Shown: positions 38,472 to 51,693 of the stretch, piece by piece
Layout of the letters: each line of letters starts with the position of its first letter
Numbering within the stretch: position 1 is the stretch's first letter
Assembly (NCBI RefSeq): GCF_014207985.1
Contig: NZ_JACHMI010000001.1
Location: 4,199,001 to 4,263,000, forward strand
Direction: 5' to 3'
Length of the DNA stretch: 64,000 nucleotides
Origin: Nonomuraea rubra
GTDB lineage: Bacteria > Actinomycetota > Actinomycetes > Streptosporangiales > Streptosporangiaceae
The notes under the pieces: generated by a model
What the model saw: the letters and a program-made list of their open reading frames with translations, nothing else
Told to the model about the DNA's origin: nothing
Database searches by the model: none
Program-made: the position numbers and the translations under genes

Positions 38472-39098
38472 TCAGGTGTGGTCGGCGCAGCAGGGTGTGG
38501 GGTTCGGCACCTCGGCGGGGGCGATCCGGCCGCCGGCGGCCGGCATGGTGAGCAGCGTCATGAGGCCGTCCCGCCAGACGGGCCGGACGTGGTCGTTCGT
38601 GACGACCGGCACGTCGTCGGGCGGCGGCCCGGGGGAGGCGAGCAGCAGCACCACGTCGATGGCCGAGCCGGCGCGCAGCTCGCCCGCGCTGAGGGTGCCG
38701 GTGAGCAGGTCACGGCCGGGGAAGGTGACGACCCGGCCGCTCCGCCTGGCCTCGTGCTCGGCCGCCGCCAGCGCCGCCCCCGCCGCCAGCGGCCCGGTAC
38801 GCCGCTCGCCCAGCGCCCACGACACGACGACGGGCGGCTCGCCCGGCGCCGCGGGAAGGTCCGCGGCCGTCAGCGTGCCGGGGACGGCCAGCGAGCAGGC
38901 GACGTGCGGCTCGTCCCCCGCCTGCCCCGCCGGCACGAAGTGGGTGCACCCGACCGCGTCGCCCGGCAGGCCGAGCGCCCGCGCCACGGTGTGGAGCAGG
39001 TGCTCGGCCTCGGGCACCGTCCGGCTGCCCGCGTCGAACCCGAGGACCATCGGCCCGGATGTCGGCCCGGTTGTCGGCCCGGTTGTCGGCGCTGTCAT
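38472..39098 (-). CDS. Hypothetical protein coupled to the PHP hydrolase
   Basis: A 208-residue protein I do not recognise. The ATG at 39098 overlaps the PHP gene stop as ATGA. The N-terminus is a Thr-Gly-Pro repeat from a 12-bp DNA repeat (about 39049-39090). The middle is Ala/Leu-rich without clear membrane helices. The C-terminus ends PNPTPCCADHT, a possible metal-binding tail. Coupling suggests a role with the PHP protein; no function is assigned. Confidence 0.7.
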   Translation of the reverse strand: MTAPTTGPTTGPTSGPMVLGFDAGSRTVPEAEHLLHTVARALGLPGDAVGCTHFVPAGQAGDEPHVACSLAVPGTLTAADLPAAPGEPPVVVSWALGERRTGPLAAGAALAAAEHEARRSGRVVTFPGRDLLTGTLSAGELRAGSAIDVVLLLASPGPPPDDVPVVTNDHVRPVWRDGLMTLLTMPAAGGRIAPAEVPNPTPCCADHT

Positions 39099-40828
39099 CG
39101 GCGCGGCAGGATCCAGATCGGGTTGCTGTAGAACCACAGGTCGTTCCACGGGTCGGCGTCGCCGTACACGTCGATCTGCGGCCCGTTCGGGTCCACGGCG
39201 GCGCCCAGCAGCCCGGGCGCGCTGCGCTTGCCGTCGGTGCCGCGCAGCCGCACGTAGACGGGCCGGTCGACGGCGCCGAGCTGGTAGGTGAAGGTGACGG
39301 TGCCGCTGTTCTTGTTCACCTCGTACGACTGCACGACCTTCGTGTTCGGCGTGGTGAAGGCGTCCCTGTCGGAGACGGGGCCGGTGACGTCGCCCTGGAT
39401 GACGTCCACCCGGGCCAGCGTGGGCACGAACTGCGCCCAGTTCGGCCGCCCGGCCAGGGTGACCTCGATGGACAGCTCGACGCGGGCGCCCCGCCGTACC
39501 TGGAGGGTGCTGCCGAGCGTCACGCCCCGCTGGCCGGTGCCGGCCGCGCGGGCCCGCACCACCAGCCCGCTGATCAGGCCGCCGTGGTCCACCCAGATGC
39601 GCCCGGCGCGCAGGGCGTCCATGACGGCGCCGTAGGAGAAGTCCTCGGCGCCGACGTGCGTCCTGCTGTAGAAGCCGGGCCAGAAGTCGCCGGAGCCGAA
39701 GTTGGGCACGCCCTTGTAGACGGGGTCCTCGTAGCGGCCGTTGGCGTTGAAGTCGCTGTTCGGGCCGCGGTCGCTGGTGTCGCCGTGCACCCAGTGCGCG
39801 TCGGAGTTGGCGGTGATCCACCACGGCTTGCCCTCGGCCAGCAGGCTGTCCCACAGGCCGCCGACGGTGGAGGTCATCCAGTCGAACCCGCCGAAGGTCT
39901 TGTAGCTCTCGGCCGGGTAGCCGGGGAAGGAGTCGGCGCCGGGGCTGCCGTCGTAGTAGCCGCGCCCGCCGCCGGGCCCGTACGGCTTGGCGATGCCGGC
40001 GGCCTGGTGGCCGGGCGCGCCCTCCATGCCGATCGCGATCGACGGCTGCGCGTCCCGCCAGCCGCGGATCTCGTGCGGCGAGTCGATGCCCTTCCTGGAG
40101 GGGTGGTTGGCCAGGAACAGCGCGTCCGGCACGCGCCGCCTCCTGACCGCCTCGGCCAGGAAGTTCAGCCCGGCGATGGCCAGCGCCTCGTTCTGCGGCG
40201 TGTTGGAGCTCGCGCCCTTCACCGACCCGTCGAAGGAGCTCTCGAACTCCTTGAGCGTCGAGACCTCGTTCCGGCCGGGGGCGACGAACACGGTGCCGTG
40301 CTCGGCGGCCGGGATGTTCCACTCCAGGCCCTGGAAGACCAGCGTGTCCTTGACGGCCTCGCGTGCCGCCACGATGTCCGGGTTGACCTTCTCTACGCCG
40401 ATCTTGGCGTGCGCGGCGCCGCCGTGGTCGGTGATGACCATCCAGCCCAGCCCGAACGCGTTGGCGTGGCGCACGTGGTCGATGACCCGGTACACGGCGT
40501 CGGAGCTGTACTGCGTGTGGATGTGGTGGTCGCCGGCCAGCCACTGGTAGCCGTCCCTCGGCTCGCGGCCCCGCCCCTCGTCCCTGGTGACGGCCGCGGC
40601 GGCCTGGCCCTCGCCGCCCAGCACGCCGGCGGCGGTCAGCCCGGCGCCCAGCAGCCCGGCCCGCCGGAACATGCGCCGGCGCGAGAGCTGCCCCGGCGAC
40701 AGCTCGGCATCGGGAACCGACAGGTCCCGCGCCACGGCGGCCTCGGTTTCTCCGGGCTGCTCGTGCGCGTGGTCGTGCGCGTGGTCGTGCGCGTGGTCGT
40801 GATCATGGTGATGGTGCCCGTGGCCCAT
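39095..40828 (-). CDS. Tat-exported PHP-domain metallohydrolase with His-rich N-terminus
   Basis: A 577-residue CehA/McbA-type PHP hydrolase. Twelve histidines and four aspartates fall within the first 22 residues. They are followed by a Tat signal (SRRRMFRRAGLLGAGLTAAG) around residues 48-75. PHP metal motifs follow: GDHHIHTQYSSD, ITDHGG, NHPSRKG and TANSDAHW. The C-terminal beta domain is RVDVIQGDVTG-like. A His-rich stretch before a cleavable signal would be lost on export, so it may act in the cytoplasm, for example in metal loading. Confidence 0.85.
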   Translation of the reverse strand: MGHGHHHHDHDHAHDHAHDHAHEQPGETEAAVARDLSVPDAELSPGQLSRRRMFRRAGLLGAGLTAAGVLGGEGQAAAAVTRDEGRGREPRDGYQWLAGDHHIHTQYSSDAVYRVIDHVRHANAFGLGWMVITDHGGAAHAKIGVEKVNPDIVAAREAVKDTLVFQGLEWNIPAAEHGTVFVAPGRNEVSTLKEFESSFDGSVKGASSNTPQNEALAIAGLNFLAEAVRRRRVPDALFLANHPSRKGIDSPHEIRGWRDAQPSIAIGMEGAPGHQAAGIAKPYGPGGGRGYYDGSPGADSFPGYPAESYKTFGGFDWMTSTVGGLWDSLLAEGKPWWITANSDAHWVHGDTSDRGPNSDFNANGRYEDPVYKGVPNFGSGDFWPGFYSRTHVGAEDFSYGAVMDALRAGRIWVDHGGLISGLVVRARAAGTGQRGVTLGSTLQVRRGARVELSIEVTLAGRPNWAQFVPTLARVDVIQGDVTGPVSDRDAFTTPNTKVVQSYEVNKNSGTVTFTYQLGAVDRPVYVRLRGTDGKRSAPGLLGAAVDPNGPQIDVYGDADPWNDLWFYSNPIWILPRR

Positions 40829-41058
40829 GGGTGTTTCTCCGTCCCGCCGGAAAGGGTGCGCCGGCTACGGCGGGAGCGTGGCGGAACCGGATGAATCGGA
40901 CATGAACGGTGGAAGATCGGCGAGTGCCGAATGGATGCCACATGCCACCTCAAGGGGTCGGTGACCTTCTTCGCCTTCACGGGGCGCGCCCCCTCTCCGA
41001 TGCTCTAGTGTCGTAATGTGACGGTGCGAAGACTGCCAGTGATCGGGAAAGGTCGCGT
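40829..41058. promoter_or_regulatory. Divergent promoter region of the PHP and protease operons
   Basis: A 230-bp gap without a gene. A perfect palindrome GGGGCGCGCCCC is at 40981-40992, and a possible -10 (TAGTGT) for the protease operon is near 41006-41011. No good -35 was found at normal spacing. GGGAAAGG precedes the GTG start of the protease gene. Confidence 0.45.
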
Positions 41059-42750
41059 GTGGGCGGAGTGTTCATCCACGACCGCGCCGGCCGTCACCGC
41101 CGCACGCTGATGTCCGGGCCGCCGCTGCCGGGCCGCGCCACCGAGCCGTGGCGGGTGCGCATCCGCGACACCGCCGGAAACATCCGTGGCGCGGGCGTGT
41201 CGCTCACCGACGGATACGTGCTCACCTGCGCCCACGTGCTCGACGGCACCGGGGGAGAGGTCGTCGTCGACTTCGTCGCCCTCGGCGATCCCGTGTCGCT
41301 GCCCGCGCGGGTCAGGCCCGAGCTGTTCGTCGGCCCCGACGAGGCGGGGTGCGGCGACGTGGCGCTCATCGAGCTCGACCGCCACCAGCCGGGCGGCCTC
41401 GACGCGACCCTGCGCAGGACCGCCCTGGGCTGGCCCCGCGAGGTGCGGGTGTTCGGCTTCCCCGGCGACGTGCCGTACGGCGTGCACACCAGGGCCACCC
41501 TCGCGGGCCAGAGCGGGCCGCACGGCGAGTGGCTGCAGATGAACGGCCTCGGCCCGCACGAGCCGCGGGTGCGGGCCGGCTTCAGCGGCGCCGGCGTCGT
41601 CGACGCCGAGACCGGCGACGTGCTCGGCATCGTGGTCGGCGAGTACACCGGCGAGGCCGTCGCCATGTCGTGGATGATCCCGGTCGAGACCATCGTCAGC
41701 CACCTGCCGATGGCCCTGCGCTGGGTGACCGGCGAGTCGTACGCGGACGAGTCGTTCGCCGAGCCGAGCCGGCCCGGCGCGGACCAGGCCGGCATCACCC
41801 GGCGCGCCATCGACTGGCTGAACAAGCGCGACACCGGCGACACCCTGCTGGTCGTCCTCGGCCGGGACGCCGAGGCGATCAGGTGGATCACCGCGGTGTC
41901 CGGCCGCGAGCAGCGCAGCGGCATCACGCCTGCCCCGGGCGAGCCCGTTCCGGTCCCCGGGAGCATCGACGTCGCCGTCGACGCCTCGCGCAGGAGCCCG
42001 GACGACGTCGCGCGGCGCATCCTCGTCCGGGCCGGCATCCGCCTGGACGGCGAGGTCCCTCCGGCCGCGCGGATCAGGGCGGGCGTGCCGCCGATGACCA
42101 TCGTGATGCACGGCATCGACGAGGCCGAGCGGCCCGGGGAGCTGCTGGAGGGCGTGCTGCGGCCGCTGGCCGAGAACGGCAGCAGGCTGGTGCTCGTGTT
42201 CCGCTCGGAGTCCTCGACCCACCTCCGCACGGTGCGGTCCTGGCCCGTGGGCACGCCCGCCTACCGCGTCGAACGGCTCGCCGAGCGGCTCGCCGACCTC
42301 CAGGCGCTGGAGCAGCGCGTCCTCGGCCTGCTCGCCAAGGTGGTCGACCGTACCCCGGCCGACTGGCGGCACGGCAGGCTCGCCGGGGAGCTGAAGCGGC
42401 TGCGCGCCGGGCTGCCGGACGCGGACGAGGAGCTCCGCCGGTTACTGGAGAGGTGCGAGCGCGCGACGGCGCGCGCGTCGCGCACGTTCGCCTCGCACGA
42501 GAAACGGCTGCTGCGGATGAAGGCCGAACGCGACCGCCTGCGCGGCCTCCTCGGAGCGTACCACGCGACGGCCGGCGGCGCCGGGCTCGCCGAGGATCTC
42601 GGGCTCGCCCCGCTGTACGAGGCGGCGTACCAGGCGCTGTGGCGGTTCCCGACCGACCTCGCCGCGGCCGGCGGGGCGGTGGAGGCCTACCAGCGGGCGA
42701 TCTGGCGGGCACTCGGCATGGGGAGCACCGGTGACGGCGACCTGCTGTGA
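41059..42750 (+). CDS. Trypsin-like serine protease with C-terminal helical region; first gene of conflict-type operon
   Basis: A 563-residue protein without a signal peptide, so probably cytoplasmic. The N-terminal trypsin-like domain (about 25-220) has the full triad: His59 (LTCAHV), Asp100 (CGDVALIEL) and Ser176 (AGFSGAG). The middle (about 245-395; DTLLVVLGRDAEAIRWI and MTIVMHGIDEAE) looks like an NTPase-type fold without an evident Walker A. The C-terminal 150 residues are charged helices and a likely coiled coil. It overlaps the kinase gene by 20 bp. Proteases of this kind occur in predicted actinomycete conflict operons with VWA and Trypco proteins. Confidence 0.85.
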   Translation: MGGVFIHDRAGRHRRTLMSGPPLPGRATEPWRVRIRDTAGNIRGAGVSLTDGYVLTCAHVLDGTGGEVVVDFVALGDPVSLPARVRPELFVGPDEAGCGDVALIELDRHQPGGLDATLRRTALGWPREVRVFGFPGDVPYGVHTRATLAGQSGPHGEWLQMNGLGPHEPRVRAGFSGAGVVDAETGDVLGIVVGEYTGEAVAMSWMIPVETIVSHLPMALRWVTGESYADESFAEPSRPGADQAGITRRAIDWLNKRDTGDTLLVVLGRDAEAIRWITAVSGREQRSGITPAPGEPVPVPGSIDVAVDASRRSPDDVARRILVRAGIRLDGEVPPAARIRAGVPPMTIVMHGIDEAERPGELLEGVLRPLAENGSRLVLVFRSESSTHLRTVRSWPVGTPAYRVERLAERLADLQALEQRVLGLLAKVVDRTPADWRHGRLAGELKRLRAGLPDADEELRRLLERCERATARASRTFASHEKRLLRMKAERDRLRGLLGAYHATAGGAGLAEDLGLAPLYEAAYQALWRFPTDLAAAGGAVEAYQRAIWRALGMGSTGDGDLL

Positions 42751-44962
42751 GCGGCCGGGCTGCGACGGAGTGATCGAGGCGACCGGCTTCTGCGGCACCT
42801 GCGGGCGCCTCCCGCACCCGGAGGGGCCGCCCGCCCCGCCGTCCGCCGTCCCGCAGGCGCCGTCCGCTCCCGCTCGCGTCTGGGCCCTGCCGGTCTTCGA
42901 CTTCCCCGACCCGCGCACCAGGATCCTGGCCGACCCGCACTTCCCCGAGCGGGACCGCCGTTGCGCCAGGTGCGAGCACCCGGTGGGACGCGCCCGCCAG
43001 GGGCGGCCCGCGCTCGCCTCCGGCTACTGCCCGTCCTGCGGGCACCGGTTCTCGTTCCTGCCCGGCCTCAAGGACGGTGACCTGGTCGCCGGCCGGTACG
43101 AGGTGATCGGCTGTTTCGCCCGTGGCGGCTTCGGCTGGGTCTACCTCGCCAGGGACCGCCACCTCGACAGCCTCGTGGTGCTCAAGGGCATGATCGACGA
43201 GGCCCAGGCGCCGATGGCCGACGCCGAGCGGCGCGCCCTCATCATGCTGGACCATCCCAACATCGTGCGGATCCGCGACTTCGTCGCCCACCCGGACGCC
43301 CACACGAAGCAGTCCCGCGAGTACATCGTGATGTCGTACGTCGACGGCCCGGTGCTCAACGACATCAGGAAGGAGTCCGCCCGGGGAGCCCTGCCGCTGG
43401 GCGAGGCGCTGCGGGCCGAGCACGTCGCCGTCTGCGGGGTGCGCATCCTGGCCGCGCTCGGCCACCTGCACGGTCTCGGGCTGCTGTACTGCGACATGAA
43501 GCCGGAGAACGTGATCCTCCAGCCTGGGCAGCGCGGCGAGGAGGAGGCGAGCCGGGTCAAGCTCATCGACCTGGGCGCCGTGCACAAGATGGGCGACCGC
43601 GACCACCGGGTCATCGGCACGCAGGGTTACCAGGTCGGGCCCGAGGAGCTCAAGGAGCGCGGCGCGACCGTGCAGTCGGACCTGCACACCGTGGCCGTCA
43701 CCCTGACGCGCCTGCTCGACGTGACCGCCGACAAGATGAACCGCCGGCCCGGGGACGACCGGGTCGAGGTGGGCCTGGAGTCCTTCCGCCGGCTGCTGGC
43801 CCGCGCCGGGCACCACGACCCCGACCGCAGGTTCGCCTCGGCCGCCCAGATGTCCGAGCAGCTCGAAGGGGTGTACCGGGAGATCTCCGCGCTGCGGGAC
43901 GGCACGCCCCACCCGCACCCGTCCACCCTGTTCGCGCCCACCGCCGGGCTCCTCGACGCGGGGCTCAGCGTCGTGCCGCCGCTGGAGCGGTGGATCCGCG
44001 GAGGCTGGAGCCCCGAGCTCCCGCCCCCGCTGGACCTCGGGTCGCCGAACCCGATCGTGGCCGCGCTCGGGCTGCCCGTCCCGCTGGCGGACCCGGACGA
44101 CCCGGCGGCGGTCATCCTGGCCGCCCTCGACGACCGCGACCCGGGCAGGCTGCTCGACACGAGGTTCCCCGACGGCGGCGACACGGCCGAGATCCGGTTC
44201 GCGCGCTGCCGTGCCCACCTGGAGGTGGGCGACCTCGACGGCATGGACGCCGACCTGGAGCGGGCCGCCGAGCTGCTGGGAGAGACGGCCACCCGCGACT
44301 GGCGGGTGCGCTGGCACCACGGCCTGCGGGCCCTGGCCACCGGCGAGTTCGCCGCGGCCGAGCGGGAGTTCGGCGCCGTCTACGACGCGGTGCCCGGCGA
44401 GGAGGCGCCCAAGGTGGCGCTGGGCTACTGCGCCGAGGCCGCCGGCCAGGCCGGCCGCGCCGAGCGGTACTACCAGGCCGTCTGGTGCCGGGACCACCGG
44501 CAGGCCTCGGCCGGGTTCGGGCTGGCGAGGATCCGGCTGTCACGCGGTGACAGGGCCGGCGCGATGGAGGTGCTGGACGGCATCCCGCCCGCGTCCCGGC
44601 ACTCCGACGTGGCCGGCGTCGCCCGCGTGCTCACGCTGTCCGGGCGCCTGGGCGGCTCGCTGCCCGATGCCCGCCTGCTGTCCAGGGCCGCCGGCCGGCT
44701 GGCCGACGCGTACGTGGACGACGACGCCCGCGACCGGCTGACCACGGTCATCCAGGAGGCGGCCTTCGCCCGGATCCGCGCCGACGGCGGCCCCCTGCCC
44801 GCCGACGGCGGCGCGGTCTTCGGCCGGCACCCGGACGAGCACACGCTGCGCCTGCGGCTGGAACGGTCCTACTTCGCGCTGGCCGAGCAGGCCAGGGACG
44901 CCGGCTCCCGCTGCGCCCTGGTCGACCGCGCGCACGCGATCCGCCCGATGACGATCCTCTGA
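42731..44962 (+). CDS. pknG: PknG-like serine/threonine protein kinase
   Basis: A 743-residue soluble kinase with PknG architecture. An N-terminal zinc-ribbon-like cluster (Cys5-Cys24 region) is followed by the rubredoxin-like motif Cys78, Cys81, Cys100 and Cys103. The kinase domain (about 120-390) has glycine loop ARGGFGWVYL, Lys152, catalytic YCDMKPEN (Asp255, Asn260) and DLGA at 280. A TPR-type C-terminal region (about 480-735) follows. In mycobacteria PknG couples amino-acid sensing to metabolism via GarA. The GTG start follows GGGAG and overlaps the protease gene by 20 bp. Confidence 0.88.
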   Translation: MTATCCERPGCDGVIEATGFCGTCGRLPHPEGPPAPPSAVPQAPSAPARVWALPVFDFPDPRTRILADPHFPERDRRCARCEHPVGRARQGRPALASGYCPSCGHRFSFLPGLKDGDLVAGRYEVIGCFARGGFGWVYLARDRHLDSLVVLKGMIDEAQAPMADAERRALIMLDHPNIVRIRDFVAHPDAHTKQSREYIVMSYVDGPVLNDIRKESARGALPLGEALRAEHVAVCGVRILAALGHLHGLGLLYCDMKPENVILQPGQRGEEEASRVKLIDLGAVHKMGDRDHRVIGTQGYQVGPEELKERGATVQSDLHTVAVTLTRLLDVTADKMNRRPGDDRVEVGLESFRRLLARAGHHDPDRRFASAAQMSEQLEGVYREISALRDGTPHPHPSTLFAPTAGLLDAGLSVVPPLERWIRGGWSPELPPPLDLGSPNPIVAALGLPVPLADPDDPAAVILAALDDRDPGRLLDTRFPDGGDTAEIRFARCRAHLEVGDLDGMDADLERAAELLGETATRDWRVRWHHGLRALATGEFAAAEREFGAVYDAVPGEEAPKVALGYCAEAAGQAGRAERYYQAVWCRDHRQASAGFGLARIRLSRGDRAGAMEVLDGIPPASRHSDVAGVARVLTLSGRLGGSLPDARLLSRAAGRLADAYVDDDARDRLTTVIQEAAFARIRADGGPLPADGGAVFGRHPDEHTLRLRLERSYFALAEQARDAGSRCALVDRAHAIRPMTIL

Positions 44963-44986
44963 GCAGAGAACGAGGTGCCCCCCGCC

Positions 44987-46423
44987 ATGGATCCCACGAC
45001 CGGGTTCACCCTGAGGGCCGGTCAGATGAAGTACGTGTCCAGAGACGCCCGCGAGACGCACGCGATCATCGAGGTCACCGCCGGCGGAACGTTCCAGGAG
45101 GCGGAGGCCGCCGAGGTGATCGTGCTCGACTGCTCCGACTCGATGAACCTCCCCTGGACCAAGCTCGCCCAGGCCCGCAAGGCGGGCGCCGCGGCGATCG
45201 AGGCCCTGCGCGACGGAGTCCGCTTCGGCCTGATCGCGGGCAACCACGAGGCCCGGATGATCTACCCGGAGGACGAGCGGCTGGTCGCCGCCACGCGCGA
45301 GACGAAGGACGAGGCCAAGCAGGCCGTACGCCGGCTGATCGCCAGCGGCGCGACCTCCATGGGCGCCTGGCTGCGGCTGGCCGACACGTTGCTGGCGGCC
45401 CACCCGGACGCCGTACGGCACCTCGTGCTGCTGACCGACGGCCGGAACCTGCCCGCCTACCGGCAGGACCTCGACGACGCCCTCACCCGCTGCCGGGGCA
45501 GGTTCGACTGCCACGGCCTGGGCCTCGGCGACGACTACGACCCGGGCGAGCTGCAGCGCGTCGTGTCCGCGCTGCGCGGATCCGCCGAGGCGGTCCAGCA
45601 CGGCTCCGACCTCGCCAGGATGGCCGCGGAGCTGGTACGCCGCTCGATGAGCAGGCGGGTGCCCGGCGTGTGGATCCGGATCAGGACGACCCGCGTCGCC
45701 CGGGTGAGCGAGGTGCGGCAGGAATTCCCCGCGAAGGCGGACCTGACCGGGCTCGGCAGGCGGATCGCCCCGAACGTCATGAGCTACTCCACCGGCGCCT
45801 GGGAACAGGGCGAGACCCGCCACTTCCACCTCCGGCTCCGCCTGGACCTCGCGCACCTCCCGCCGGGCGAGGACGTGCTCGCCGCCCAGGTGGCGGTGGC
45901 GGACGCGGAAGCCGGCGGCCACGGCGAACCCGTGGCGGTGGCCGGCGGCCACGGCGAGCCCGTGGCGGTCCTCGTGCACCGCACCGACGACAGCGCGCTG
46001 TCCAGCGTCCTGGACCCCGAGGTGGATCACTACCTGCGCCACCACGAGCTGGCCAAGGCCACCACCGCGGGGTGGGAGGCCTACAACGAGGGAAACGGCG
46101 ACCTGGCCGCGCGGCAGTGGGGCCGGGCCGTCGCCCTGGCCGCGGGGCTCGGCGACCGAGTGCAGCTCGAAGCGCTCGGACGGCTCGTGCACGTCGTCGG
46201 CGATCCCGCGGAGGGCGTGGTCCGCATCCGGCCGGACCTGCAGCGACGGGACATCTCCCGGTCCGTCTTCGCCTCCCACCAACCCCCTCGCCCGCCCCGG
46301 GCGGCGGCGCCGAGCCCGTCGTCGGAAGGCGTTTCCGGACGCATCTGCGGTCGCGGGCACCCGTCCCCGCCGGACGCCCGGTTCTGCGAAGAGTGCGGCT
46401 ACACCTGGAGCGGGAGCGCATGA
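44987..46423 (+). CDS. VWA-domain protein with C-terminal zinc ribbon
   Basis: A 478-residue protein. The VWA domain (about 42-215) has a complete MIDAS: Asp48-Cys-Ser50-Asp-Ser52 (DCSDS), Thr113 in SGATSMG and Asp141 in LLTDGR. A beta-rich middle domain contains a recent 10-residue duplication (AGGHGEPVAV). The C-terminus has a CGRGHPSPPDARFCEECGY zinc ribbon. ATG 44987 is preferred to GTG 44975 on GAGG spacing. VWA proteins usually serve as metal-dependent adaptors; here it may bridge kinase and protease. Confidence 0.87.
   Translation: MDPTTGFTLRAGQMKYVSRDARETHAIIEVTAGGTFQEAEAAEVIVLDCSDSMNLPWTKLAQARKAGAAAIEALRDGVRFGLIAGNHEARMIYPEDERLVAATRETKDEAKQAVRRLIASGATSMGAWLRLADTLLAAHPDAVRHLVLLTDGRNLPAYRQDLDDALTRCRGRFDCHGLGLGDDYDPGELQRVVSALRGSAEAVQHGSDLARMAAELVRRSMSRRVPGVWIRIRTTRVARVSEVRQEFPAKADLTGLGRRIAPNVMSYSTGAWEQGETRHFHLRLRLDLAHLPPGEDVLAAQVAVADAEAGGHGEPVAVAGGHGEPVAVLVHRTDDSALSSVLDPEVDHYLRHHELAKATTAGWEAYNEGNGDLAARQWGRAVALAAGLGDRVQLEALGRLVHVVGDPAEGVVRIRPDLQRRDISRSVFASHQPPRPPRAAAPSPSSEGVSGRICGRGHPSPPDARFCEECGYTWSGSA
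45911..45970 (+). repeat. 30-bp direct duplication inside the VWA gene
   Basis: Two adjacent 30-bp copies (45911-45940 and 45941-45970) differ at two positions and encode consecutive AGGHGEPVAV units. Frame is kept. It looks like a recent slippage event. Confidence 0.9.
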
Positions 46424-47592
46424 CGGGCGCCGCCGAGCGCGCCCGGACCGCGCCGGCCATCGCCGGCGCGCGGCTGCGCCGCACCATCCGGGGCCCCTCC
46501 AGGGGCACCACCCACGCGACGCTGCTGAAACTGCTGACCGGGCTCCTGTCCGTCACGGCCCTGTCGTGCGTGACCGGCTTGCTGGTGTTCCCGTCGCGGC
46601 TCGGCGCGGCCGAGGCGGCACGCAGGAGCACCGCCCCGGCCATCGTCGAGATCGTCACCGCGCGGGCGGCGCTCGTCCGTGCCGACAGGGCCGCGATCCT
46701 CAGCCTCAGCTCGGGGGCCGAGCTCGTCGGTCCCGGCGAGAAGTACCGGAACGAGATCGCGGTCGCCGGGCAGAGCCTCACCCGGGCCGCCGGGCACAAC
46801 GCGGCGGGCACCAAAGGCGTCGGCCACCTCCAGGTCATCACCGGGCTCCTGGTCACCTACGCGGGGCTGATCGAGGAGGCCGACGCGCACTTCCGGCAGG
46901 AGGACGGCCGCAGGCTCGGTGCCGTCCACCTGTGGAGCGCCTCGCGCCTGCTGCACGACCGCGACAGCGGCCTCCTGGCGCGGATCGACGACCTCCTCGA
47001 TGCGCACGACGCCGAGCTGGCCGAACAGCTCGGGCGCGGCGCTATGACGCCGGTGGCCGTCGCGGCGCTGACCGTGCCGCTCGTCCTGCTCGCGGGGCTG
47101 CTCGTGGTCACCCACCGGTTCTTCCGCCGCCGGTTCCGGCGCAGGACGAACCCCTGGCTGCTCCTCGCCGCGGGGCTGCTGGGGGCGCTGGCGTGGGCCT
47201 CCGCCCACCTCGTCGCCTCGCAGCAGGAGTACGCACCCGTGGGCGACACGTTGCGCGGCCTCATCCACACCGCATCGGCGCAGACCGTCGAATCGCACTA
47301 CACGGGGCGGCTGGCCCTGCGCGACCTGCTGGGCCAGACACTCTGCGTCGGCGCCGGCCCGTGCGGTCACACCGTTCGCCAGGCCATCGACCAGGCCGGG
47401 AAGCTGACCTGCCGCCAACCGTGCTCGGACTGGATCCAGCCGATGGAGTGGACCAGGACGATGGTGCGGAAGGCCGGGGACGAGGACACCGGCCCGCACC
47501 TCCTGATCTACGCCCTCGACGGTCTCATCGCCGGGGCCGTCTTCCTCGGATTCCGTGACCGGCTCAACGAGTACAAGTACAGGCGGAAATGA
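46420..47592 (+). CDS. Four-helix membrane protein, GlnX-like sensor
   Basis: A 390-residue membrane protein. Predicted helices lie at about 35-57, 210-230, 243-264 and 360-378, leaving two extracytoplasmic domains. The first (58-208) is helical. The second (265-358) has four cysteines (319, 325, 341, 345). The N- and C-termini are basic and cytoplasmic. ATGA overlaps couple it to the VWA gene before and the binding-protein gene after. Topology and neighbours match GlnX, which passes the GlnH signal to PknG in mycobacteria. Sequence identity to GlnX could not be tested. Confidence 0.75.
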   Translation: MTGAAERARTAPAIAGARLRRTIRGPSRGTTHATLLKLLTGLLSVTALSCVTGLLVFPSRLGAAEAARRSTAPAIVEIVTARAALVRADRAAILSLSSGAELVGPGEKYRNEIAVAGQSLTRAAGHNAAGTKGVGHLQVITGLLVTYAGLIEEADAHFRQEDGRRLGAVHLWSASRLLHDRDSGLLARIDDLLDAHDAELAEQLGRGAMTPVAVAALTVPLVLLAGLLVVTHRFFRRRFRRRTNPWLLLAAGLLGALAWASAHLVASQQEYAPVGDTLRGLIHTASAQTVESHYTGRLALRDLLGQTLCVGAGPCGHTVRQAIDQAGKLTCRQPCSDWIQPMEWTRTMVRKAGDEDTGPHLLIYALDGLIAGAVFLGFRDRLNEYKYRRK

Positions 47593-48932
47593 CCATTTCA
47601 CGACTGGGCCGCGCCGCCCTGGCCATCGCGGTGGCGCTGTCGCCGGCGGCCGCCTGTTCGCGGCAGAACCCGAAGGGCGAGGTGACCGTCCTCGCACTCT
47701 GGACCGGCAGCGAGAAGGCGGCGTTCACCGAGGTCCTCGAAGCGTTCAAGGGACGGACCGGGATCGTGCCCGTCTACCAGGACACCCGTGCGCTGCCCCA
47801 GGTCCTGCAGGCAGAGGTGGAGACGGGCAACCCGCCGGACGTGGCGATCATGGCGAGCGCCGGTGAGTTCGCCGAGTACGCACGTGACGGCAAGCTGGTG
47901 AAGCTGGACGGGTTGGTCGGCGAGCATCGCCGGGCCTTTAAGGAGCACTGGCTGCTGCCCATGGGAGAGGGGCGTGACCGGCACGTCTACGCGGTTCCCT
48001 ACAAGGTGAGCTTCAAGAGCGCCATCTGGTACCGCCCCGGCCGGACGCCCGAGCCGCCGCGGGAGAACTGGGACCGGCTCGTGTCCTACACGACCTCCCA
48101 GGCCGGCGCCGGGATCACCCCCTGGTGCATGGGCATGGGCGACGCGCCGAGCTCCGGCGGGACGGGCACCGACGCGATCGAGGACATCCTGCTCCACAGG
48201 TCGCCCGAGGTGTACGAGAAATGGGCGACGGGGCGGCAGAGCTGGAGCTCACCCGAGGTCAGGGACGCCTGGGAGACCTGGCACGAGGTGTTCGTCGAGC
48301 ACGCCTACGGCGGACCGCGGGCCGCGCTGTCGACGGACTTCCAGGACGGGGGACGCCCGATGTTCGCCGACCCACCCGGTTGCCTCCTGGAACACCAGGG
48401 CTCCTTCATCGTGGAGTTCTACGAGCAGTACCGGGGTCTTCCCAACGGCGCGCCGCGAGCCGGCGCGGACTTCGACTTCTTCCCCTTCCCCCCGTTCGAC
48501 CCGTCCGGGGACACGGCCGGCCAGCCGTGGCTGGGCGCGATCGATCTGGCCGTGATGTTCAACGACACCCCGCAGGCGCGCGAGCTCATCCGGTTCCTGG
48601 CCACGCGGGACGCACAGCTCATCTGGCCCAGCGACCCGCACCGGGGCGGCGGCGCGATCATGGCGAACGAGACCGTCGACGCCGCCGCGTACGGGGACCC
48701 GATCAGCAGGAAGATCGCCGGCATCGTCCACTCCGACCGGCCCATGTGCTTCGACGCCTCCGACGCCATGCCGCCCGCCATGCGCAACGCGTTCTCCCGG
48801 GCCGTCCTCGAATACCTGAACGACCCCGGCCGCCTGACGGGCCTGCTGGACAAGCTCGACGCCATTCACGCGGGCATCCCGCAAACGGCATGGCTGGACC
48901 TGCCGTGCGGAGACAAGGAGACACAGGAATGA
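47589..48932 (+). CDS. Extracellular solute-binding lipoprotein
   Basis: A 447-residue lipoprotein with lipobox around Cys23 (SPAAACS). The body resembles type-1 (sugar/oligosaccharide) ABC solute-binding proteins: VTVLALWTGSEKAAFTEVL, PPDVAIMASAGEFAEYA and PWLGAIDLAVMFND. No ABC permease or ATPase is adjacent. It is sandwiched between the GlnX-like gene and the Trypco1 gene by ATGA overlaps. It therefore probably acts as a signalling receptor rather than a transporter subunit. The ligand is unknown. Confidence 0.85.
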   Translation: MTISRLGRAALAIAVALSPAAACSRQNPKGEVTVLALWTGSEKAAFTEVLEAFKGRTGIVPVYQDTRALPQVLQAEVETGNPPDVAIMASAGEFAEYARDGKLVKLDGLVGEHRRAFKEHWLLPMGEGRDRHVYAVPYKVSFKSAIWYRPGRTPEPPRENWDRLVSYTTSQAGAGITPWCMGMGDAPSSGGTGTDAIEDILLHRSPEVYEKWATGRQSWSSPEVRDAWETWHEVFVEHAYGGPRAALSTDFQDGGRPMFADPPGCLLEHQGSFIVEFYEQYRGLPNGAPRAGADFDFFPFPPFDPSGDTAGQPWLGAIDLAVMFNDTPQARELIRFLATRDAQLIWPSDPHRGGGAIMANETVDAAAYGDPISRKIAGIVHSDRPMCFDASDAMPPAMRNAFSRAVLEYLNDPGRLTGLLDKLDAIHAGIPQTAWLDLPCGDKETQE

Positions 48933-49300
48933 GTGCCCTGTTCAGCTTCCACCTCGACCAGGGCGGCTCGGTCGTGGTCGAGCTCCCCGAGCCGCCCGGG
49001 GTCAGCCGGGCATCCTCCTGGAAGGAACGCGTCGTCGAGGACACCCGGCTGTCGTTCGAGAAGGCTCTGGCGAACGTCCGCGACGCCGCGAGTGCCGCGC
49101 TCGCCCAGTTCCAGGAGATGAGCCGGCGCCCCGACGAGGTGGAGCTCAAGTTCGGCGTGAAGCTCGACGCCAAGGCCGGGGCGGTCATCGCGCAGACCGG
49201 GCTGGAGGGCCAGTTCGAGGTGACGCTCAGGTGGCAGGCGACGCCTGACGACACCGCTACGACAGGGCTCGGGCCGCGTGCACCAGGGGAACGTGGCTGA
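48929..49300 (+). CDS. Trypsin-co-occurring domain 1 (Trypco1, CU044_2847) family protein
   Basis: A 123-residue protein starting MSALFSFHLDQGGSVVVEL. It contains the small beta domain, the helical ALANVRDAASAALAQFQEM segment and the VELKFGVKLDAKAGAVIAQTG stretch (here VELKFGVKLDAKAG and AVIAQTG), which are typical of Trypco1/CU044_2847 proteins. Such proteins co-occur with trypsin-like proteases in predicted conflict systems. The ATG overlaps the binding-protein stop. Its 3' end overlaps the convergent GH15 gene by 44 bp. Confidence 0.8.
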   Translation: MSALFSFHLDQGGSVVVELPEPPGVSRASSWKERVVEDTRLSFEKALANVRDAASAALAQFQEMSRRPDEVELKFGVKLDAKAGAVIAQTGLEGQFEVTLRWQATPDDTATTGLGPRAPGERG

Positions 49301-51011
49301 AGGCCTGGGGGAAGTTGCCGACCAGCCGCCCGTAGCGGGGGTCGTACTCCTCGGCCAGCAACCCCACGTCGTTGCGCAGCGACAGCAGCCGCTCGAACAG
49401 GTCCTTGGCCTCCTCCTTGCGCCCCTGCATCGCCATGACCTCCACCAGCCAGAAGCTGCACGCCAGGAACGCGCCCTCGCCGCCCTGCAGCCCGTCCACG
49501 TCGTTGTCCTCGGCGATCGGGTAGCGCAGCACGAACCCGTCGGACATGAGCTCCTTCTCGATGGCCGCCACCGTGCCGGTCACCCGCGGGTCGTCGACCG
49601 GCAGGAAGCCGACCATGGGGATCATCAGCAGCGCCGCGTCAAGCTCGGACGAGCCGTACGACTGGGTGAAGGTGTTGCGCTGCGCGTCGAAGCCCTTGTC
49701 GCAGATCTCCGCGTGGATGACGTCGCGCAGCGTCCGCCACTTGTCCACCGGCCCGGTACGGCCGAAGTGCTCGACGTACTTGACGGCCCGGTCGAGCGCC
49801 GCCCAGCACATCACCTTGGAGTGCACGAAGTGCCTGCGCGGGCCGCGCACCTCCCACAGGCCCTCGTCCGGCTCGTCCCAGTGGTCCTCCACGTAGTCGA
49901 GGAGCTGCCGCTGGATGGTCCACGCCCGGTCGTCGGCGGACAGGCCGCGGGTGCGCGAGACGAACAGGCAGTTCATCACCTCGCCGTAGACGTCGAGCTG
50001 GAGCTGCTTGACCGCCTCGTTGCCGATGCGCACCGGGCGGGAGTCCTCGTAGCCGTCGAGCCAGTCGAGGCGCAGCTCGGGCAGGCGGCGCTCGCCCGCG
50101 ACGCCGTACATGATCTGGAGGTCCTGCGGGCGGCCGGCGATCGCGCGCAGCAGCCAGGCGCGCCAGTCGCCCGCCTCCTCCAGGTAGCCGGAGCTGATCA
50201 GCGCGTCGAGCGTCAGCGTGGCGTCGCGCAGCCAGCAGAAGCGGTAGTCCCAGTTGCGCACCCCGCCGAGGTCCTCGGGCAGGGACGTGGTGGGCGCGGC
50301 GACGATGCCGCCCGTCGGCGCGTACGTCAGGCCCTTCAGCGTGATCAGCGACCGCACCACGGCCTCGCGGTACGGGCCGGAGTAGGTGCACTTGCCCACC
50401 CACTCCTCCCAGAACGCCTGGGTCTCGTCGAGCTGGCTGTGGCAGTCGATCTGCGGCGGCATCGGCTCGTGCGAGGGATGCCAGGTGAACACGAAGGGCA
50501 GCCGGTCGCCCTCGTTCACGGTGAACGTGGCCCGGTGGGCGTAGTCGCCGCCCTTGAGCGGCACGGGGGAGTGCAGCCACACGGAGTCGGGCCCGCCGAT
50601 GGCCTGCAGGTGGCCGTTGGAGCGGCGGACCCACGGCACGATGCGGCCGTAGTCGAAGCGGACGCGGAGCTGCGTGGAGACCTGGACGGAGCCGGACACG
50701 CCCTCGACGATGCGTACGACGTCGGGATTGCGGTCACGCGGCGGCATGAAGTCCGTCACGCGGACGGTGCCCGTCGGGGTGTCCCACTCGCTCTCCAGGA
50801 TGAGCGTGTCGGGGCGGTAGCGCCGCCGGGTGGCGGGTTGCCTGCCGGTGGGCCCGAGCCACCAGTGCCCGTTGCGTTCGCTGCCGAGCAGGGCCGCGAA
50901 GCACGACGGCGAGTCGAACCTGGGCAGGCAGAGCCAGTCGATCGAGCCGTCCCGCCCCACCAGCGCGGCGGACTGCATGTCTCCGATCAGCGCGTAATCC
51001 TCGATCCGCAT
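49257..51011 (-). CDS. GH15 glucoamylase/trehalase-type hydrolase
   Basis: A 584-residue cytoplasmic family 15 protein. It starts MRIEDYALIGDMQSAALVGRD, given here as MRIEDYALIGDM and QSAALVGRDGSIDWLC. An N-terminal beta-sandwich is followed by an (alpha/alpha)6 barrel. Conserved RNWDYRFCWLRDA and WEVRGPRRHFVHSKVMCW regions are present. Actinobacterial members include trehalases as well as glucoamylases, and the substrate cannot be decided from sequence. Confidence 0.88.
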   Translation of the reverse strand: MRIEDYALIGDMQSAALVGRDGSIDWLCLPRFDSPSCFAALLGSERNGHWWLGPTGRQPATRRRYRPDTLILESEWDTPTGTVRVTDFMPPRDRNPDVVRIVEGVSGSVQVSTQLRVRFDYGRIVPWVRRSNGHLQAIGGPDSVWLHSPVPLKGGDYAHRATFTVNEGDRLPFVFTWHPSHEPMPPQIDCHSQLDETQAFWEEWVGKCTYSGPYREAVVRSLITLKGLTYAPTGGIVAAPTTSLPEDLGGVRNWDYRFCWLRDATLTLDALISSGYLEEAGDWRAWLLRAIAGRPQDLQIMYGVAGERRLPELRLDWLDGYEDSRPVRIGNEAVKQLQLDVYGEVMNCLFVSRTRGLSADDRAWTIQRQLLDYVEDHWDEPDEGLWEVRGPRRHFVHSKVMCWAALDRAVKYVEHFGRTGPVDKWRTLRDVIHAEICDKGFDAQRNTFTQSYGSSELDAALLMIPMVGFLPVDDPRVTGTVAAIEKELMSDGFVLRYPIAEDNDVDGLQGGEGAFLACSFWLVEVMAMQGRKEEAKDLFERLLSLRNDVGLLAEEYDPRYGRLVGNFPQAFSHVPLVHAARALS

Positions 51012-51090
51012 GCCTAGACGCTACTCGGAGAAGGGGTGATCCCGTGGCCGGGTCGATCATGTCGCGTCATGTCCGCCCCGGGCCACGGGA

Positions 51091-51693
51091 TCACGTCAGA
51101 GGGAACCAGCGGGTGAACACCTGCGTCAACGGCCCGATCGCCAGCGCGAACACCACGGTGCCCACGCCCACGGTGCCGCCCAGCAGCCAGCCCGCGGCCA
51201 GCACGGCGACCTCGATGGACAGGCGGGACAGCCGTACCGACATGCCGAGCCGCACCAGCCCCGTCATGATGCCGTCGCGGGGGCCGGGGCCCAGGCCGGC
51301 GCCGATGTAGAGCAGCGTGGACAGCGCGATGACGACCACGCCCATGACGAGGTAGAAGGACTGGAACGCCAGGTGGTCCGCCGTGGGCAGCAGGAAGATC
51401 GCGGCGTCCGCGAACGGGCCGACGAGCAGCACGTTGCTGATCGTGCCGAGCCCGGGCTTCTGCTTCATCGGGATCCAGAGCAGCATCACCAGCGCGCCCA
51501 CCGCGAGGATGACGGTGCCGATCGACAGGCCGGTGCGCAGGGCGGCGCCCTCGTGCAGGACGTTCCACGGGGCGTTGCCGAGGCCGGACTCCAACTGCAG
51601 GGCGATGCCGAGCCCGTACAGGGCCAGGCCGCCGTAGAGGCGGACGAGGCGGGCGGGCAGTGAACTCGGCAGCGGGACGGTTGATTCGCTCAT
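51091..51693 (-). CDS. YczE/YitT-family membrane protein
   Basis: A 200-residue integral membrane protein with about five hydrophobic helices and the family string GLGNAPWNVLHEG near residue 38, plus GLGPGPRDGIMTGL. ATG 51693 is chosen; a longer start would run into the shared promoter. It is divergent from a MocR-type regulator, the usual partner of YczE. The function is unknown; vitamin B6 or cofactor-related transport has been proposed for such pairs. Confidence 0.82.
   Translation of the reverse strand: MSESTVPLPSSLPARLVRLYGGLALYGLGIALQLESGLGNAPWNVLHEGAALRTGLSIGTVILAVGALVMLLWIPMKQKPGLGTISNVLLVGPFADAAIFLLPTADHLAFQSFYLVMGVVVIALSTLLYIGAGLGPGPRDGIMTGLVRLGMSVRLSRLSIEVAVLAAGWLLGGTVGVGTVVFALAIGPLTQVFTRWFPLT

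Follow-up and report, generated by a model that had tools for sequence, protein, structure and literature searches.

The 64,000-nucleotide stretch of DNA from the soil actinobacterium Nonomuraea rubra analysed here (NCBI RefSeq assembly GCF_014207985.1, contig NZ_JACHMI010000001.1, positions 4,199,001 to 4,263,000 of the forward strand; in the following, the window) carries a block of six open reading frames, all on the plus strand and spanning positions 41059-49300, which unites a PknG-type relay with a trypsin-like protease and a Trypco1 protein. This combination is real, conserved and assembled from two known kinds of locus. We consider it probable that the block is a rewired paralogous PknG locus serving as a cassette, in which an external ligand would act via a GlnX-PknG relay on a cytoplasmic protease.

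Gene 1 (41059-42750, 563 amino acids) encodes a trypsin-like protease (Trypsin_2, 42.6 bits) with a STAND-like middle part lacking a P-loop and a C-terminal coiled coil. It overlaps by 20 bp with gene 2 (42731-44962), whose product was assigned as a PknG-type kinase by Pfam, its catalytic residues and its position in the PknG tree. The rubredoxin (42905-43069), kinase (43121-43720) and TPR parts (44054-44953) of this protein matched PknG_rubred, Pkinase and PknG_TPR (209 bits), all above the gathering score. After a gap of 24 bp, gene 3 starts with the ATG at 44987 (44987-46423) and encodes a VWA protein (VWA_3, 61.5 bits, 45116-45589) with a zinc-ribbon-like pattern near its C-terminus (46358-46402). 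Three ATGA overlaps then lead to the GlnX-like membrane protein of gene 4 (46420-47592), with four hydrophobic segments and a short basic loop (about 47110-47157), to the solute-binding lipoprotein of gene 5 (47589-48932; SBP_bac_1, 67.9 bits), with Cys23 at 47655 as the candidate lipid-bearing residue, and to gene 6 (48929-49300), encoding a Trypco1 protein (PF19493, 94.7 bits with a gathering score of 24.6). The initial annotation, made without database searches, had described six co-directional genes with these junctions, and coordinates and overlaps were reproduced exactly. The families it had named for the six proteins, including Trypco1, were recovered by the profile searches in Pfam and NCBIfam, the zinc ribbon only below threshold (13.4 bits vs. 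25); the four-helix membrane protein of gene 4 matched the GlnX family (NF058618) with an E value of 5e-25, yet its 88.5 bits fall short of the cut-off of 250. PADLOC matched the kinase domain of gene 2 to the PD-T4-6 and mad6 models and gene 1 weakly to PDC-M35A and LmuA; genes 3-6 had no PADLOC match and no known defence system was called for the block.

A profile of gene 4 homologues yielded 21 loci, and hidden Markov models (HMMs) for calling the genes were built from these loci and the window. The first five genes stand together on one strand in 19 of the 21 loci, the exceptions being L013 and L014 from Actinoplanes, and all six are present in 15 loci, 14 times in the order of the window and once permuted (L009). 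These HMM counts depend on the seed loci; tblastn with the window proteins alone, as a second count, gave identical numbers for the 21 loci. Loci in which the genes for protease, PknG, VWA protein, GlnX-like protein and binding protein occur jointly on the same strand are here termed type-B. Seven more were found among 32 further fetched stretches, four of which come from the window's own genome (L063, L065, L074, L076, L077, L078, L093; Trypco1 in three of them). With the window counted in, the type-B loci number 27, and all six genes are present in 19 of them. The same set and order occur in Pseudonocardiaceae and in the families coded f1, f18 and f46. Gene 4 was matched in 8 of 100 genomes of the window's own family, its own genome included. 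Of the seven remaining genomes, G074 (L093) carries the complete set of six, and G032 (L062) has no protease. Only a GlnX-like and binding-protein pair was seen in three (L059-L061), and two gave weak matches without such a set. Across the class the profile matched 80 of 394 genomes, many of them weakly and canonical GlnX genes included. Neither a gene set lacking joint conservation nor an absence of Trypco1 similarity, each of which would have refuted the initial annotation, was thus observed, and the synteny shows the PknG/GlnX-type relay and the Trypco1/trypsin module in one conserved operon, with active-site and metal-site residues kept in 25-27 of the 27 loci.

Gene 1 looks like a chimera of two parent kinds, in which the trypsin-STAND part of a Trypco1-linked protein is joined to the coiled coil of a PknG locus. 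Both kinds occur in the same genome. A search with PF16918 gave two PknG genes, the second of which lies in locus L085 (5138-13515) in the order coiled-coil protein, PknG, PP2C, VWA, FHA, GlnX and SBP_bac_3. The coiled-coil gene of L085, whose product has no Pfam match, stands where the type-B locus has the protease. A search with PF19493 gave four Trypco1 genes, and in L087 and L088 of this genome such a gene adjoins a protein with trypsin, a P-loop STAND-type NTPase and WD40-like repeats.

The Trypsin_2 domain of gene 1 comprises residues 45-191 (41191-41631). Its triad H59/D100/S176 is present in all 28 aligned rows; in the type-B set H and S are kept in 27 of 27 and D in 26 of 27 loci, L019 having N instead. 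A structure was predicted with a predicted local distance difference test score (pLDDT) of 84 and a predicted template modelling score (pTM) of 0.77 and contains a beta-rich protease domain, an alpha/beta middle part and a long helical tail. The middle part (residues 241-381, 41779-42201) was delimited by the elements of this model and by BLASTP, in which residues 18-354 aligned with the L087 protein from the trypsin into the NTPase part (28% identity, E 2e-14). The L087 protein has GGPGCGKS where gene 1 has no P-loop. The P-loop motif GxxxxGK[ST] is absent from all 28 aligned rows of gene 1 and from the 120 homologues listed but present in L087 and L088, and gene 1 has no Pfam match to a WD40-type sensor.

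The coiled-coil tail (residues 400-551, 42256-42711; BLASTP and HMM) is shared with the separate protein beside PknG in L085, with 34% identity over 143 columns for residues 429-548 (BLASTP, E 3e-10). A profile built from gene 1 outside its protease part had matches in 97 of 394 genomes, and the 30 best loci were fetched. PknG is adjacent in 8 of the 8 loci with a protease, one of them being the window, and in 20 of the 22 without one; of the two remaining loci, L119 spans no more than 2043 bp, and in L122 the match is confined to the NTPase part. Because PknG adjoins nearly all fetched tail loci, the tail can be taken as a marker for such loci. The arrangement of L085, with a coiled-coil gene next to PknG, recurs in 20 other fetched loci.

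Some relatives of gene 1 have a further domain. TIR_2 was found in 16 of the 120 homologues listed (223 found), and rescanning five of them confirmed the TIR domain in front of the protease in all five. A VRxEI stretch occurs in 15 of the 16, in 13 as WVRxEI, with its Glu as the putative catalytic residue. The first nine residues of gene 1 (VGGVFIHDR, 41059-41085) align with GGVFVNYR at the TIR start of P0027 and P0028, and in gene 1 they are followed by the linker in front of the protease. These residues thus seem to be a leftover of a TIR domain lost in the gene 1 lineage. No full-length TIR-bearing form was found in 396 genomes of the phylum, where the matches were TIR parts elsewhere or TIR-less proteases, and eight further type-B proteases scanned were free of TIR. 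That the TIR-bearing relatives lie in the same kind of operon is only suggested, by GlnX-like and protease hits whose longest contigs agree in length (12110, 61110 and 24490). In L162 and L165 (G499:C126:2992-4105) two divergent genes encode TIR parts 41-43% identical to the TIR of gene 1 relatives. Of the initial view of gene 1, the trypsin-like protease stands; the degenerate STAND-like domain, the coiled-coil domain and the TIR-bearing relatives had been missed.

The kinase separates from that of the known pathway as well. The PknG tree was calculated from 61 rows (70 less 9 duplicates), midpoint-rooted for drawing only; the program flagged long rows, the window row among them. One split with 100/100 support divides 33 from 28 rows. 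The larger side contains all 27 type-B loci (three as names of duplicates) together with L062, L150, L072, L073, L075 and L096, the smaller one the seven GlnH-linked loci (L064, L070, L085, L089-L092). The other rows of the smaller side include 20 that were seen over only about 4 kb, in which PP2C was found five times, a piece of GlnH once and a protease never. An exception is L067, whose kinase falls on the GlnH-linked side and is accompanied by VWA, GlnX-like and SBP_bac_1-type genes. The window row groups with Pseudonocardiaceae and one further relative (7 rows, 100/98) and not with its own family, represented by L062 and L093. This position would be in keeping with transfer; base composition (G+C 0.736 in the block vs. 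0.73 in the window) offers no sign of it. At least two PknG matches were found in 17 of the 19 type-B genomes of the 21-locus set, and the two Crossiella genomes have one.

Other arrangements were seen around these kinases. L072, L073, L075 and L096 have a rubredoxin-less PknG type with GlnX-like and SBP_bac_1-type genes, and neither VWA nor a protease was matched within the stretch covered. In Saccharothrix deserti a second PknG of the type-B side (L150, G468:C18:143328-146171) is followed by VWA, and Trypco1 lies about 1.6 kb past the TPR match. Besides the glnX-glnH-pknG trio found in the available sections of the published accounts, the canonical locus L085 contains genes for a coiled-coil protein, PP2C and VWA. 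The idea that canonical pknG loci always go with coiled coil, PP2C, VWA and FHA is refuted by the seven GlnH-linked loci, in which VWA and PP2C were found in three, the coiled coil in three and FHA in two, some of these stretches being cut by region ends.

The active site of the kinase is intact. K, D, N and DLG are kept in 27 of 27 type-B loci and the catalytic-loop lysine in 25. The metal-ion-dependent adhesion site (MIDAS) residues of the VWA protein, which is 33% identical to that of L085, are kept in 26-27 of 27. A link between the loss of FHA and the loss of N-terminal threonines of the kinase was considered and rejected; the window kinase has few, and most Amycolatopsis type-B kinases keep TRITSTVVTR-like stretches.

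Hydropathy gave four segments for gene 4, with a spacing like that of the canonical GlnX of the same genome (L085), which scores 281 on NF058618. Of the 34 aligned GlnX-like rows with letters at the short basic loop, 28 read FRR. Since some of these have no PknG next door, the loop cannot be assigned as a PknG-specific site. Pairs of GlnX-like and binding-protein genes without PknG in the stretch seen were noted in L013, L014, L059-L061, L066, L068, L069 and L071. For the lipoprotein 14 rows were aligned, of which 12 are type-B, and Cys23 is present in at least 90% of them all. In a comparison of the binding-protein profile with solved structures, binders of chitin oligosaccharides (E 6e-15) and AcbH (E 1e-13) scored best. 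A carbohydrate is therefore the likely ligand of gene 5, since the nearest solved relatives bind oligosaccharides or sugars. Gene 6 gave a poor model (pLDDT 62), and the only solved structure that its profile matched, over positions 31-66, is a designed helical bundle, which was not used.

Compared with the close relative L170, the block is a clean 8.3-kb insertion. In blastn, window 38901-40936 corresponds to L170 101-2081 (91.6%) and window 49255-51196 to L170 2092-4031 (96.6%), so that 8318 bp (40937-49254, plus strand) replace 10 bp. The flanking PHP-domain gene (39095-40828) and GH15 gene (49257-51011), both on the minus strand, are outside the block; the last ~14 codons of Trypco1 (49255-49300) lie outside the insert and overlap the 3' end of the opposite-strand GH15 gene. 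PHP and GH15 genes are near each other in 12 of 38 other genomes of the genus, with match distances below 160 bp in seven, of about 520 bp in one and of 3.8-9.2 kb in four. The four other insertions at this site have no match to the six block HMMs. Five of their proteins were scanned and comprise a NACHT/KAP protein, an SMI1/KNR4 protein, a transporter of the major facilitator superfamily (MFS), and a phosphonate-type binding protein with a cytochrome P450. The NACHT/KAP protein (L168, 2010-6296) has 1428 amino acids with NACHT and KAP P-loop matches. A pure defence hotspot is ruled out by the MFS gene and by the binding protein and P450, and the insertion point is a variable site only.

Our preferred reading is built on gene content, synteny, active-site residues, domain relationships, tree position and the insertion. 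From these we infer, as follows, the class of ligand, the way the signal runs, the partner for docking, a phosphorylation control of the protease and the biological role. The surface lipoprotein would bind an extracellular, probably carbohydrate, ligand and act on the GlnX-like protein, which may pass its state through the membrane to the TPR domain of the PknG-type kinase. Kinase and VWA protein would then control the cytoplasmic protease, held on their complex by its coiled-coil tail, with Trypco1 as its partner or restraint. In gene 1, a dock onto the PknG relay would have taken the place of the ATPase switch and the WD40 sensor of a Trypco1-linked conflict sensor. With the active sites of kinase and protease intact and the STAND switch gone, control by the kinase relay would be the most economical explanation. 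The initial annotation had suggested a VWA-scaffolded protease. Docking via the tail seems at least as likely, since gene 1 carries the coiled coil that is encoded separately beside PknG elsewhere. The output would be regulated proteolysis, most likely in a conflict, cell-death or stress response. A more specific version, which we offer tentatively as possible rather than probable, is an outside-in conflict system. Here, for instance, a cell-wall or chitin oligosaccharide from a competitor or dying kin might reach the lipoprotein and trigger, via GlnX and PknG, a self-damaging protease (a TIR-protease in relatives), the ATP switch and WD40 part of a STAND sensor having been swapped for the docking tail of a PknG locus.

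Several points weigh against the preferred reading. The link between kinase relay and protease, the ligand and the interactions are all predicted from sequence, and the docking function of the coiled-coil protein is a guess. The STAND-like assignment derives from one pairwise alignment, from profile matches to long open reading frames and from how strands and helices follow each other in the model. A fold search with the whole gene 1 model gave 702 matches at E 0.001 or better; the 50 listed were all on the protease part, nearly all of them serine proteases, and the middle part and tail were barely probed by these structure searches. The NTPase and WD40 matches of L087 fall just under the Pfam cut-offs, and in the L077 protease the last part of the tail is missing (profile 2-438 of 524). 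BLAST showed no pairwise similarity between gene 4 and the canonical GlnX of the same genome, and the type-B GlnX-like proteins of L076 and L078 match no GlnX model. Trypco1 does not adjoin eight of the 27 type-B loci, one of which (L020) ends with its contig 329 bp past gene 5 and may thus only seem to lack it. Finally, in ten Amycolatopsis loci the operon has neighbours of equal lengths and strands, by comparison of lengths and strands only, which favours stable inheritance, as of a housekeeping or developmental function, as much as conflict.

Alternatively, it might be that the block is a second nutrient-sensing PknG operon, in which a sugar is sensed, metabolism adjusted and proteolysis is of the ordinary regulatory kind, with no role in conflict or death. 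The relay half is indeed built like the nutrient pathway, and the known PknG pathway governs metabolism, according to the available parts of PMC6069109; the chitin-oligosaccharide and AcbH types of binding protein and the Amycolatopsis neighbours fit as well. However, PP2C and FHA, the class of the known PknG substrate, are missing from the block and the protease is associated with proteins of the Trypco1/STAND kind and has homologues bearing TIR, so that we regard this explanation as rather unlikely.

We give still less credit to a single conflict complex sensing from inside, by its VWA or STAND-like part, with the membrane protein and lipoprotein as a mere anchor. VWA, trypsin, TIR and Trypco1 are parts of the predicted vWA-MoxR ternary conflict systems (available sections of PMC7159879), and where the block is inserted here, a second genome of the genus has a NACHT/KAP protein. 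Against such a complex speak a binding protein in 27 of 27 type-B loci and its largely conserved lipoprotein cysteine, and the operon has no MoxR ATPase match, gene 1 no P-loop and no WD40-type sensor. It is very improbable that the genes are neighbours without functional tie. GlnX-like and binding-protein pairs do occur without PknG, as listed above, but the same set and order in several families, one block against the empty site of L170 and the domain in gene 1 otherwise found beside PknG argue for a unit.

If the cassette works as proposed, it is of wider relevance. The predicted trypsin/STAND/Trypco1 systems are regarded as intracellular sensors of invasion, and the established role of PknG relays is in nutrient sensing; the block unites both kinds in one gene set and one chimeric protein, kept in several actinobacterial families. 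This would offer a concrete route by which a signal from outside might trigger a protease within the cell, or a TIR domain in the relatives, and hints at possible targets of a PknG relay other than 2-oxoglutarate metabolism.

The GlnH-GlnX-PknG-OdhI/GarA pathway has been described in Corynebacterium and Mycobacterium (PMC6069109, PMC9769921, PMC8546545, in their available sections). In the model of PMC9769921, as far as its available part goes, GlnH acts on GlnX and GlnX on the TPR domain of PknG, with the contacts undemonstrated according to its authors. Like this pathway, the block has in one operon a PknG with rubredoxin, kinase and TPR domains, a four-segment GlnX-like protein and a solute-binding lipoprotein. 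In contrast, its lipoprotein is of the SBP_bac_1 and not the SBP_bac_3 type, its GlnX-like protein scores under the NF058618 cut-off, an FHA substrate gene is missing, and protease, VWA and Trypco1 are added. The kinases lie on opposite sides of the tree. Hence the block cannot be equated with this pathway, as the initial annotation might have implied; the pathway has its own, separate locus (L085), and PP2C is missing here, too.

The conflict role of trypsin/Trypco systems was predicted computationally by Kaur et al. (available sections of PMC7159879). With the vWA-MoxR (VMAP)/iSTAND systems, as described there, the block shares VWA, trypsin, Trypco1 and, in relatives, TIR. It differs by a PknG-type kinase with intact active site and by the extracellular binding protein. 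In the six block proteins we found no AAA match at E values up to 1 that would indicate a MoxR-type ATPase, and no Pfam match to a VMAP-C or iSTAND component, the middle part of gene 1 being STAND-like without P-loop. The words PknG and solute are absent from the main text of PMC7159879. The same sections contain an actinobacterial set of zinc-ribbon kinase, PP2C and VWA within GAP1-N2 systems; the block likewise has a zinc-ribbon kinase beside a stand-alone VWA, but no match to PP2C, DO-GTPase or GAP1 among its six proteins. In the open-licence PMC literature searched, no paper was found that has GlnX together with vWA or Trypco together with PknG, nor one describing the gene combination of the block.

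Further counterparts lie in the same genome. As in L085, a gene with a coiled-coil domain precedes PknG in the block, and VWA and then GlnX and a binding protein follow; unlike the block, L085 has PP2C, FHA and SBP_bac_3 and no protease. As in L087 and L088, trypsin is followed by a STAND-type domain and a Trypco1 gene is adjacent. These two keep the P-loop and the WD40-like repeats, whereas gene 1 has the coiled coil instead.

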